Below, piece by piece: positions 2,744 through 6,585 of a stretch of 64,000 nucleotides of DNA; positions within the stretch are counted from its first letter, which is position 1, and the number at the start of each line of letters is the position of its first letter. Both the position numbers and the translations under genes were made by a program. The notes under the pieces are model-generated. The model was not told the origin of the DNA and did no database searches. It was given only the letters and a program-made list of their open reading frames with translations. Location of the stretch: the NCBI RefSeq assembly GCF_001517585.1, contig NZ_FBYC01000004.1, positions 248,001-312,000 of the forward strand, given 5' to 3'. The DNA is from Roseibaca calidilacus (GTDB lineage: Bacteria > Pseudomonadota > Alphaproteobacteria > Rhodobacterales > Rhodobacteraceae).

Positions 2744-3472
2744 ATGCCGCTGCGTGTGCTCTGCGTTGCCGTTGCTTTGTGGCTTGCTGCCCTGACGCCG
2801 GCGCTGGCGCAGGATATCAGCCTGCAATTCGGCGAGGACGGATCGCTCGCACTGCGTGGTGCGCAACTGGTCGTGTTGCTGACGCTGCTTAGCCTTGCGC
2901 CCGGCATATTGGTCATGGTCACATGTTTTCCATTCATCGTGACGGTGCTGGCGATCTTGCGGCAGGCTTTGGGGTTGATGCAGTCGCCACCCAACATGCT
3001 GATGGTGTCGCTGGCCCTGTTCCTGACCTATTTCGTGATGGAACCGGTATTTGTCATGGCGTGGCAAAACGGGATTGTGCCGTTCAATGACGGTGACATT
3101 GCAATGGAAGAGGCGTTCCTGCGCACTGTGGACCCGTTTCGGGCCTTTATGGCCGCGCGTATCGACCCGGAGACATTCGAGAGCCTAGCCAGTCTGCGCC
3201 CAACCCCGGTTGGCGCGCTTGGTCCCGATAGCCCGCTCTCGGTGCTGGTTCCGTCCTTCATGCTTAGTGAAATCGCCCGCGCGTTTCAGATCGGGTTCCT
3301 GATCTTTCTGCCCTTCCTGATTATCGATCTGGTTGTGGCTGCGGTGCTGATGTCGATGGGCATGATGATGGTGCCGCCGGCAATCGTGTCGTTGCCATTC
3401 AAGCTGTCATTTTTCGTCATCGCCGATGGTTGGCGGCTGATTTCCGAAGCCCTGGTGCGCAGCTATTTCTAG
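2744..3472 (+). CDS. fliP: Flagellar export gate protein FliP
   Basis: FliP builds, with FliQ and FliR, the core channel of the flagellar type III export gate. The 242-residue product has a cleavable signal sequence ending near ALAQD, then the hallmark TCFPFIVTVLAILRQALG block and the SPPNMLMVSLALFLT segment; four membrane helices are expected. I chose ATG 2744 over an upstream TTG at 2738 that overlaps the fliN stop. It is the last flagellar gene here; fliQ and fliR do not follow. It is convergent with the small-RNA array on the other strand, whose terminator lies about 20 bp past the fliP stop. Confidence 0.93.
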   Translation: MPLRVLCVAVALWLAALTPALAQDISLQFGEDGSLALRGAQLVVLLTLLSLAPGILVMVTCFPFIVTVLAILRQALGLMQSPPNMLMVSLALFLTYFVMEPVFVMAWQNGIVPFNDGDIAMEEAFLRTVDPFRAFMAARIDPETFESLASLRPTPVGALGPDSPLSVLVPSFMLSEIARAFQIGFLIFLPFLIIDLVVAAVLMSMGMMMVPPAIVSLPFKLSFFVIADGWRLISEALVRSYF

Positions 3473-3494
3473 GGCGGCCCTCGAAACGCAAAAA

Positions 3495-3530
3495 GGCGGC
3501 AATCCCAGGGAGGAGGAGGGGATTACCGCC
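3495..3530 (-). ncRNA. CcsR-type small RNA hairpin 6 (last) and terminator
   Basis: On the minus strand an imperfect stem (GGCGG / CCGCC plus AATCC / GGATT) encloses CCTCCTCCC (complement of 3508-3516). It is followed at once by TTTTT (complement of 3490-3494), so this last member also looks like the intrinsic terminator of the whole DUF1127-CcsR transcript. Confidence 0.75.
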
Positions 3531-3540
3531 GATTTTGCTT

Positions 3541-3564
3541 GACCCCAGGGAGGAGGAGGGGGTC
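3541..3564 (-). ncRNA. CcsR-type small RNA hairpin 5
   Basis: The inverted repeat GACCCC / GGGGTC closes a loop that on the minus strand carries CCTCCTCCC (complement of 3548-3556). It is the fifth of six such units in transcription order. Confidence 0.7.
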
Positions 3565-3602
3565 GTCACAATGTCAAGGGCCAAAGGCCCGGTCACAGAG
3601 AC

Positions 3603-3626
3603 ACCGGCAGGGAGGAGGACGCCGGT
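3603..3626 (-). ncRNA. CcsR-type small RNA hairpin 4
   Basis: The perfect six-base inverted repeat ACCGGC / GCCGGT flanks a loop with CCTCCTCCC on the minus strand (complement of 3610-3618). A small hairpin GGGCC-AAA-GGCCC at 3579-3591, without the motif, separates it from unit 5. Confidence 0.7.
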
Positions 3627-3633
3627 TATCTCT

Positions 3634-3665
3634 CGATCGCCCTAGGGAGGAGGAAAGGGCGGTCG
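3634..3665 (-). ncRNA. CcsR-type small RNA hairpin 3
   Basis: A ten-base stem (CGATCGCCCT / AGGGCGGTCG, one wobble pair) encloses CCTCCTCCC on the minus strand (complement of 3645-3653). It is among the stronger stems of the array. Confidence 0.72.
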
Positions 3666-3708
3666 TTTCTGTCCGCGGTCCGGCTTGACGGGCCGGTGCG
3701 GTAGTTCT

Positions 3709-3743
3709 GGCGACGACTGAGGGAGGAGGAAACAGTCGCCGCC
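3709..3743 (-). ncRNA. CcsR-type small RNA hairpin 2
   Basis: An eleven-base stem with one mismatch (GGCGACGACTG / CAGTCGCCGCC) encloses CCTCCTCCC on the minus strand (complement of 3721-3729). The 43 bp between this unit and unit 3 hold a weaker GC-rich inverted repeat without the motif (about 3672-3701), possibly a decayed member. Confidence 0.72.
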
Positions 3744-3747
3744 GTAA

Positions 3748-3776
3748 TCAAGCCCCGGGAGGAGGATAGGGCCTGA
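3748..3776 (-). ncRNA. CcsR-type small RNA hairpin 1 (next to DUF1127 gene)
   Basis: The first unit in transcription order begins about four bases after the DUF1127 stop codon. The stem is seven pairs with one mismatch (TCA-A-GCCC / GGGC-C-TGA) and the minus-strand loop carries CCTCCTCCC (complement of 3757-3765). Closeness to the stop fits processing from the DUF1127 mRNA, as described for the R. sphaeroides CcsR RNAs. Confidence 0.72.
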
Positions 3777-3779
3777 AAC

Positions 3780-3992
3780 TCAATTCTCGAACGCAGCCTC
3801 GTAAGCGAGGCGCGAAATCATCGACCGGCTGATGCCCAGATCATCCAGCTCGCGCGTGGACAGTGCATTCAACTCGGCATAGGTGCGATTATATACACGC
3901 CGACGCACGAAGGCTTCCGACAGCCGCAGAAAAAAGCCACCAAAAGGGCTTTGAACGCGGCTCGTGCCAAGATTTTCTGCGATATGTGCCAT
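3780..3992 (-). CDS. DUF1127 small protein (CcaF1-like, leader gene of the CcsR array)
   Basis: A 70-residue Arg-rich protein. The C-terminal half has the DUF1127 pattern: RRRVYNRTYAELNALSTREL followed by DDLGISRSMISRLAYEAAFE. In Rhodobacter sphaeroides the DUF1127 gene RSP_6037 (CcaF1) is transcribed from a heat-shock-sigma promoter together with four CcsR RNAs and acts as an RNA-binding protein in stress adaptation. Here the gene is followed directly by six CCTCCTCCC hairpins on the same strand, so the same role is likely. The start is ATG 3992; a promoter-like sequence lies 51-78 bp upstream and a small hairpin (4015-4031) sits in the leader. Confidence 0.88.
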   Translation of the reverse strand: MAHIAENLGTSRVQSPFGGFFLRLSEAFVRRRVYNRTYAELNALSTRELDDLGISRSMISRLAYEAAFEN

Positions 3993-4042
3993 TTCGATGC
4001 ACCTTTAACCTTTTGGCCGAGTGTTTCGGCCTCTTGCGGATC

Positions 4043-4070
4043 AATATATGCGAATGCTGCGGGTGCACAA
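4043..4070 (-). promoter_or_regulatory. Candidate promoter of the DUF1127-CcsR transcript
   Basis: On the minus strand TTGTGC (complement of 4065-4070) and TATATT (complement of 4043-4048) are separated by 16 bp. The equivalent R. sphaeroides unit is driven by RpoHI/RpoHII; the elements here could suit sigma-70 or RpoH-type factors, and sequence alone does not decide. Confidence 0.4.
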
Positions 4071-4330
4071 TGTAAGATGCTGCAATGCTGCTATGCGCTA
4101 GTGTCATGCTTACGTTGGGTAAATTTGCACGCTGCCCGAGATCCGGGCAGTTTGCATCTGGGGATGGTAAAACATGTGCAGCAGATACCTGAAAACGGGG
4201 CGGTGGCATCGATTGGCCGCGAAACTTGGGCGTTGCCCATTTCCCGCAATAGGGGCGGCGCCTGCAAATGGCCCCTTGCCCCGACGTGCGCCATGCACAT
4301 CTATTCAGCAAGACAGGAATGGAGAACCCG
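4071..4330. other. Intergenic region between the divergent DUF1127 gene and mrp
   Basis: With 3993-4070 this forms a 338-bp gene-free gap. Besides the DUF1127 promoter candidate it holds a perfect seven-base inverted repeat, CTGCCCG / CGGGCAG, at 4132-4150, followed by TTTGC. It could be a leader hairpin or a weak terminator. No convincing small gene or known RNA was recognised in the rest. Confidence 0.4.
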
Positions 4331-5389
4331 ATGGAACCCACGCGCGACGCTATACTTGCGGCTTTGGACACGGTTGCCTTGCCGGATGGCGGGACGCTGG
4401 TCGCGCGCGACCTTGTGCGCGCGCTGGTTGTGGATGGCCAATCGGTGCGATTCGTGATCGAAACGCCATCTGCCGAAATTGCCAAGAGCTATGGAGCGGT
4501 GCGCAACGAGGCCGAGCGGGTTGTCACCGCAGTGCCGGGTGTGCAGTCGGTCGCGGTGGCGCTGACAGCGCATAGCGCGCCCAAACCCGCACCGAACCTG
4601 AAGATCGGGCGGCACCCGACACCGCAAGAGGGGCGTCAGACAGTGCCCGGTGTGACCAGTCTGATCGCCATCGGATCGGGCAAGGGCGGGGTGGGCAAGT
4701 CTACCGTTTCGGCAAATCTGGCGGTGGCGCTTGCCCGCCAAGGATTGCGCGTTGGCCTGCTGGATGCCGATATCTACGGGCCCAGCCAACCCAAGATGAT
4801 GGGGGTGGACAAGCGCCCGGCCTCTCCGGACGGCAAGCGGATCATTCCGCCCGAGGCGCATGGCGTGCGCATGATCTCTATCGGGTTGATGTTGAAAGGC
4901 GATGACGCCGTGATCTGGCGCGGCCCAATGCTGATGGGCGCATTGCAACAGCTTTTGACGCAGGTGGAATGGGGCCGGCTGGATGTCTTGCTGGTGGATA
5001 TGCCACCCGGCACCGGCGATATTCAACTAACGCTGTGCACCAAGTTCAATGTGCGCGGGGCGATCGTGGTGTCGACCCCGCAGGATGTCGCGCTGCTGGA
5101 CGCGCGCAAAGCGCTGCGCGCATTCGAGACGCTGAAAACACCCGTTTTGGGGCTGATCGAGAATATGTCGACCTTCATTTGCCCGCAATGCGGTCACGAG
5201 GAGCATATTTTCGGAGATGGCGGTGTGCGCCGCGAGGCCCAGAAGCAGGGCTTGCCGTTTCTGGGGGAATTGCCGCTAAGCTTGGAAGTGCGCTTGGCCG
5301 GGGACGGGGGCGTGCCGGTTGCCGCCACCGACAGTCCGGTGGCGCAGGCCTATAGCCGGATTGCAGAGCAAGTTGTGGCCGCGCTTTAA
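4331..5389 (+). CDS. mrp: Mrp/ApbC-type iron-sulfur cluster carrier ATPase
   Basis: A 352-residue P-loop ATPase of the Mrp/NBP35 family, which binds Fe-S clusters and hands them to target proteins in the cytoplasm. Residues 1-85 form the MIP18-like domain. GKGGVGKST at 117-125 is the deviant Walker A motif with the signature second lysine, [16 protein letters not shown] follows, and a CPQC pair near residue 275 provides the bridging cluster cysteines. I chose ATG 4331 because GGAG lies seven bases before it; an upstream in-frame ATG at 4319 has no properly spaced ribosome site. It stands alone, with its own terminator at 5452-5492. Confidence 0.92.
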
Positions 5390-6024: not shown

Positions 6025-6585
6025 GTGGCACGCAGGTTCAGAGGCTCTTTCCACCAGAAGGTGGATGGCAAAGGCCGGGTTTCGATCCCGGCCAGCTTCC
6101 GACGCGTCGTCGAATCCGGAGACCCGGACTGGACCGAAGGGCTGCGCCCCAATCTGGTCATTGTTTACGGGCTGGACAGCCAGAAGCGGCTGGATTGCTA
6201 CACGCTGACCGCAATCGAAGATATCGAGGACCGCATTGACCTGATGCAACCCGGCAGCCCAGAGCGCGAAACGCTGGAACTGACCTTTCACGGTCATGCC
6301 GCCGATGCCCAGATTGACGAGGACGGGCGGATCGTGCTTCCGCAACGCCTGCGCGACAAGCTGGAACTGGAACCGAACGAGGCTGCGTTCTTCATCGCCA
6401 AGGGCGATCATTTCCAGATCTGGAAGGAAGATACGTTCAAAGCCGTCAAATCCCAGCGCACAGACGTGTTCCTAGCCGATCAGGCCCCCGATTTCGACGC
6501 GCGCATTCACCTGCCGCCGCGCCCGTCCAGCGCGGTCGGAACAGAGGCCGATCTGCTGCGTGACACCCTGTCCCGCCGGCGTTAA
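6025..6585 (+). CDS. mraZ: Transcriptional regulator MraZ
   Basis: MraZ is a ring-forming DNA-binding protein of the AbrB/SpoVT class that controls the division and cell-wall cluster it begins. The 186-residue product carries two copies of the family motif: [16 protein letters not shown] (about 13-28) and [18 protein letters not shown] (about 96-113). It is longer than the E. coli protein (about 150) because of a C-terminal tail rich in Pro and acidic residues. The GTG start at 6025 fits the conserved opening ARRFRGSF. It follows the UpsM-like leader and precedes rsmH by five bases. Confidence 0.95.

Follow-up and report, generated by a model that had tools for sequence, protein, structure and literature searches.

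The loci closest to the one analysed here are the ccaF1-CcsR operon of R. sphaeroides and the cuckoo RNA family. In R. sphaeroides, four RNAs are named in print, CcsR1-4, the protein CcaF1 is given a length of 71 aa, and its gene ccaF1 (RSP_6037) is served by an RpoHI/RpoHII promoter (PMC10253847); the CcsRs are processed by RNase E and CcaF1 (PMC10253847, PMC7866481, PMC8307010). The cuckoo RNA family (CIN1) shares with the present locus its divergent stems, its fixed loop and a frequent position near short DUF1127 genes (PMC10253847, PMC4504443), but the published description of the cuckoo motif gives it 2-4 hairpins (PMC4504443), whereas six hairpins in three units are found here. The same CCUCCUCCC anti-Shine-Dalgarno (anti-SD) loops are carried by alpha-r14/NfeR1 of Sinorhizobium (RF02344, SmelA075), which differs in being a three-hairpin, Hfq-independent sRNA of nitrogen stress (PMC10746234). 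The three loops of NfeR1 can stand in for one another, and ntrB silencing is lost when all of them are mutated (PMC10746234).

In the window, that is, the whole 64-kb stretch of Roseibaca calidilacus DNA that was analysed, CCUCCUCCC lies in the loop of each of six consecutive minus-strand hairpins located 3′ of a DUF1127 gene. The parts of the locus are given below, each with the evidence for it in brackets.

4043-4070, minus strand: promoter-like block TTGTGC-16-TATATT (conserved in the alignment; presumed function)
3780-3992, minus strand: ccaF1-like DUF1127 gene, which opens the operon and encodes 70 aa (Pfam PF06568)
3704-3779, minus strand: CcsR-like unit 1, hairpins 1 and 2 (RF02791 34.2 bits, E 1.2e-6; covariation)
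3748-3776, minus strand: hairpin 1, A type (fold, motif, covariation; sequence)
3709-3743, minus strand: hairpin 2, B type (fold, motif, covariation; sequence)
3673-3701, minus strand: motif-free spacer hairpin between units 1 and 2 (helix 3 of the consensus, conserved)
3596-3669, minus strand: CcsR-like unit 2, hairpins 3 and 4 (RF02791 19.0 bits, E 0.037, weak)
3634-3665, minus strand: hairpin 3, A type (fold, motif; helix 4, 87.6% of cells paired)
3597-3633, minus strand: hairpin 4, B type (fold, motif)
3491-3574, minus strand: CcsR-like unit 3, hairpins 5 and 6 (RF02791 41.1 bits, E 1.1e-8; best CcsR1 match)
3541-3564, minus strand: hairpin 5, A type (fold, motif, covariation)
3490-3530, minus strand: hairpin 6, B type, at 3495-3530, with TTTTT at 3490-3494 (sequence)

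Six hairpins with an identical loop motif follow the DUF1127 gene

Read on the plus strand, the motif GGGAGGAGG starts at positions 3508, 3548, 3610, 3645, 3721 and 3757, and these six are its only exact copies on either strand of the window, against 0.39 expected and a highest count of 3 in 100 shuffles. For the minus strand of 3480-3779, the predicted fold has an energy of -132.5 kcal/mol (z -6.65) and places 6/6 motifs in hairpin loops. When the exact motifs of the window and 26 relatives were folded with 22-nt flanks, all 160 lay wholly inside a hairpin loop, compared with 100 of 800 in a control in which the letters of each arm were shuffled. The ORF at 3780-3992 scored 51.4 bits against PF06568 (DUF1127; cut-off 23.3), lies on the same strand as the array and directly upstream of it, and is followed by hairpin 1 about 4 nt past its stop codon. 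Motif count, fold and Pfam match agree with an earlier sequence-only reading, which had claimed six minus-strand hairpins with a fixed loop 3′ of a DUF1127 gene, and the six-hairpin CCUCCUCCC array behind this gene is confirmed as real and far beyond chance. The whole genome holds four DUF1127 genes above the Pfam cut-off, and exact CCTCCTCCC motifs stand beside the window's gene only.

Compensatory changes hold the stems, and the minus strand is the RNA strand

Covariation was assessed in an alignment of 27 sequences (A1; the window and 26 relatives). In this alignment, 97.3% of the cells were paired and double changes were found in 25 of 45 pairs, neither value being reached in any of 500 shuffles; the covariation score of 0.366 was higher than in any of the 500 shuffles and in any slid version, and the count of further pair types was equalled by 2 of the 500. 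The motif-free helix 3, in the spacer between units 1 and 2, had 98.1% of its cells paired, with a G-C/C-G exchange in one of its four pairs. Hairpin 4 is absent from the RNAalifold consensus, where its arms look poorly aligned, and therefore adds nothing to the covariation counts. With hairpin 4 uncounted, these results support that the stems are held by compensatory change while the loop stays fixed, and the claim that the arms vary around a constant loop was borne out by the compensatory pairs in the 27 sequences.

As for the strand, the paired columns contained 106 G-U against 12 A-C cells, an excess of G-U that points to the minus strand as the transcribed one, although the count was made on a structure derived from that strand, which favours it. 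Supportively, alifold gave -69.5 for the minus and -48.8 for the plus strand, and all 14 of the RF02791 CcsR1 and ar14 matches listed for the region fell on the minus strand. Among the best 80 of 242 named CcaF1-like loci, all 380 motifs lay on the same strand as ccaF1 and none on the opposite one. The minus strand had been named as the RNA strand by the sequence-only reading, and this held.

Two hairpins make one CcsR-like unit

RF02791, the Rfam model of CcsR1, spans 83 positions and two hairpins with CCUCCUCCC in both, and has a gathering score of 65.3. Because an Rfam search of the window at gathering score returned one tRNA and nothing more, a lax search was needed, in which units 3, 1 and 2 scored 41.1, 34.2 and 19.0 bits, respectively, all below 65.3. 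The covariance search proposed with the sequence-only reading thus scored the hairpins, but all of them below the curated cut-off and unit 2 weakly. Similarly, the alpha-r14 model (RF02344) gave 37.5 and 35.6 in the window, below its gathering score of 58.8. Together with the covariation, the RF02791 matches support the proposed CcsR/cuckoo family, here of the ccaF1-CcsR (cuckoo/CIN1) type.

The number of RNAs depends on what a unit is. RS0680a is presumably CcsR1, consistent with the linkage to RSP_6037 given for both. It is described as two stem loops with the motif in each (PMC3927594, section 2.7). Because one CcsR1 comprises two hairpins, the six hairpins of the window correspond to three CcsRs. 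Across 25 loci, motif starts were spaced 35-41 nt within units and 61-86 nt between units, and hairpin B was more stable than hairpin A in 22, 24 and 25 of the 25 loci for units 1, 2 and 3, respectively. The position of unit 2 is kept across the genus group. Between units 2 and 3, at 3578-3590 of the window, lies a motif-free GGGCC-TTT-GGCCC hairpin, and many aligned relatives carry similar G/C-rich inverted repeats at this place.

The R. sphaeroides operon is longer and shares its neighbours with the window

For direct comparison we used an assembly (G082) that we take to be R. sphaeroides, its PufM being 100% identical over residues 1-307 to the R. sphaeroides PufM used as query. Its locus (L157, reverse strand) carries 14 motifs in seven units 3′ of a ccaF1-like gene, and five of the seven units are 96-100% alike over 85 nt. 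RF02791 matched all seven, the first with 106.2 bits and the other six with 39.4-47.3, below 65.3. As only the first of the seven R. sphaeroides units reaches the gathering score, this cut-off is taken to test nearness to CcsR1 itself; most CcsR-like units escape it, in R. sphaeroides as well as here. Two of the window's scores, 41.1 and 34.2, fall inside or close to the span of the later R. sphaeroides units, while unit 2 (19.0) lies well below it. We therefore take the locus to be an orthologue of the ccaF1-CcsR operon, not a member of RF02791.

Both loci consist of a DUF1127 gene followed on the same strand by tandem two-hairpin CCUCCUCCC units, and they share part of the block upstream of ccaF1. 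The R. sphaeroides ccaF1-like ORF has 71 aa and is neighboured by a divergent mrp-like ORF, past which lies a MraZ-like ORF (both identified by eye). In the window, the order is likewise ccaF1, an mrp-like gene at 4268-5389 and mraZ at 6025-6585 (160.9 bits with the MraZ model, slightly under the model's cut-off of 162), and an mrp-like gene and mraZ thus stand beside ccaF1 in both genomes. The loci differ in unit number, with seven units in the R. sphaeroides assembly (four in print) and three here, and in their ends: in R. sphaeroides a separate terminator-like hairpin follows the last unit, whereas in the window the last unit's own hairpin is terminator-like. Since R. sphaeroides has 14 motifs in seven units, the window's locus is smaller than that of the model system and is not expanded. 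The earlier contrast between six copies here and four in R. sphaeroides set hairpins against RNAs, and the suggestion that extra copies raise the dose falls with it, as the R. sphaeroides array is the longer one and nothing points to an extra dose. A literature search on CcsR array copy numbers in Rhodobacterales found no paper, and larger arrays may be reported.

Putative promoter and terminator of the operon

Upstream of ccaF1, TTGTGC-N16-TATATT is kept across the genus group in an alignment that joined the window to 27 loci of this group and to R. sphaeroides; TTGTGC and GCAGCA recur in R. sphaeroides, where the -10-like part is less well kept. A sigma-70 scan found no promoter in 3400-4400. 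The block fits the published R. sphaeroides RpoHI/HII promoter and is regarded as a putative promoter. It is part of a GCA-rich block (GCATAGC-GCATTGCAGCA ... TTGTGC ... GCAGCA) at 4043-4100 of the window. This block is kept throughout the genus group and, in part, in R. sphaeroides as well, and it may serve as a regulator's binding site in addition to a promoter.

At the other end, hairpin 6 looks like the last sRNA hairpin and a putative intrinsic terminator in one. In 24 of 27 genus-group loci, the window counted, at least four Ts in a row come after the last motif. A terminator scan gave no site in 3400-4400, hairpin 6 with its TTTTT included, because the loop of this hairpin exceeds the scan's loop limit of 8.

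Proposed mechanism and alternative explanations

The analysis shows the array itself, its strand and fold, the covariation of its stems, its division into units, its synteny and its terminator-like end. On this basis, we consider it likely that the locus works as the orthologue of the R. sphaeroides ccaF1-CcsR operon, with one transcript cut into three CcsR-like sRNAs whose anti-SD loops repress mRNAs; its transcription, stress induction, processing and targets are what we infer. A single minus-strand transcript would start upstream of ccaF1 at the presumed RpoH-type stress promoter, cover the DUF1127 gene and the six hairpins, and end at the sixth, terminator-like hairpin. As in R. sphaeroides, RNase E, aided by the CcaF1 protein, would then process it to three CcsR-like sRNAs of two hairpins each. 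The loop CCUCCUCCC, which includes the CCUCCU found at the 3′ end of 16S rRNA, would pair with the Shine-Dalgarno (SD) sequences of its mRNA targets, whose translation would thereby be repressed, and the six loops would probably be redundant.

Pairing with SD sequences is most likely what the CCUCCUCCC loops do, judging by analogy from NfeR1 and from CcsR in R. sphaeroides. The 3′ end of 16S rRNA is GGATCACCTCCTTTCT, which contains CCTCCT and occurs twice in the genome. The genome carries five sites of the form GGAGGAGG-N2-10-ATG, against one for the reversed-pattern control, and four of the five head long ORFs (369, 389, 474 and 501 aa) while the fifth does not. Candidate targets include the 369-aa product, a MalK-type ABC ATPase, and the 474-aa product, a xanthine/uracil permease. 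However, among 10 ABC ATPase orthologues from the genus, three kept GGGAGGAGG, all of them at 91-94% identity, and among the 27 permease loci whose start could be read, GGAGGAGG was kept in 5 and missing from the other 22. The long SD match is thus kept only in close relatives, which speaks against firm target claims.

This scarcity of conserved SD targets leaves room for a protein sponge, in which the loops mainly titrate CcaF1, Hfq or another RNA-binding protein and not mRNA. Many identical loops would suit titration, CcaF1 binds RNA and the CcsRs interact with Hfq (PMC10253847, PMC7866481, PMC8307010), but the loop is complementary to SD sequences, and the related NfeR1 needs its CCUCCUCCC loops to repress by base-pairing (PMC10746234); we regard titration as an unlikely main function. 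Far less probable still is that the array is a structured 3′ UTR only, which stops transcription and protects the ccaF1 mRNA from 3′-5′ exonucleases: it does begin about 4 nt past the stop codon and end in a terminator-like hairpin, but a shield or terminator needs no CCUCCUCCC fixed in loops over covarying stems, and the R. sphaeroides orthologue is reported to give separate sRNAs with effects on mRNAs. Lastly, CsrA-binding RNAs carry GGA repeats, which also stand in the plus-strand GGGAGGAGG loops, and fliP ends just before the array on the plus strand, but a CsrB/RsmZ-like CsrA sponge read on from fliP is very improbable, given that no CsrA match was found in the genome (0 matches to PF02599, with E. 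coli, B. subtilis and T. maritima as positive controls) and given the G-U pairs, the T-run and the ccaF1 linkage, which all mark the minus strand.

The array is old within the genus group and varies in length between genera

Among the best 80 of 242 named relatives, the window's CcaF1 groups with those of Roseibaca, Roseinatronobacter and Natronohydrobacter, genera found in saline and alkaline lakes, and it is 57-90% identical to the Roseibaca/Roseinatronobacter-group relatives L077-L103. Exact motifs numbered six in 25 and five in 2 of 27 loci (the window and 26 named loci of the group), with near-fixed spacing; left out of this set were L098, whose contig holds 121 bases past the gene, and L104, with four motifs in 373 bases downstream. 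At least one motif pair was found in 35 of 37 genus genomes, a set that overlaps the named loci. The 30 genus loci fetched had six motifs in 24 (the window's own counted), five in 3 and two in 3. Of the last three, two run up to the end of their contig, and the remaining one is an additional pair that stands apart. Such second, separate two-motif CcsR-like units occur in some genus genomes (L030 1501-1549; G001:C76, G004:C1:3658086, G032:C37), the one in L030 having no CcaF1-like ORF within 3 kb.

Mean arm identity was 0.65-0.89 for the same position across genomes and 0.46-0.60 for different positions within a genome. As the arms are closer by position between species than within a genome, the duplications are older than the genus. 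A recent expansion of the array is ruled out by this positional identity and by the six-motif norm of the genus group, so that the proposed duplication followed by divergence stands in deep time but not as a recent event.

The range of the arrays was surveyed in 120 genomes of the family, one per genus, at least 90% complete and including the window's, by searching for motif pairs 15-45 nt apart, so that pairs with gaps above 45 nt are missed. A pair was present in 85 genomes, at least three pairs in 57 and at least seven in 12, with 367 pairs in total; a reversed control pattern gave 32 matches in 22 genomes, some of which can come from within arrays, which hold CCTCCTCCTCC. The longest arrays among those looked at, in two other genera, had 16 (G134) and 17 (G081) motifs. 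Of the best 80 of 242 named CcaF1-like loci, 65 have at least two same-strand motifs downstream, five have one and ten none. The array is an ordinary, conserved member of the known ccaF1-CcsR operon family, whose length is stable inside one genus group and ranges widely between genera. It is conceivable, if rather doubtful, that such arrays are length-variable anti-SD dose devices, frozen per genus, at six hairpins here, and amplified by units elsewhere, as in the 14 hairpins of R. sphaeroides with their five near-identical units and the 16 and 17 motifs of the two other genera; if so, array length would set the strength of a broad brake on translation under stress. Since array length is fixed within the genus and varied between genera, this dose idea can be tested by comparing three-unit with seven-unit arrays.
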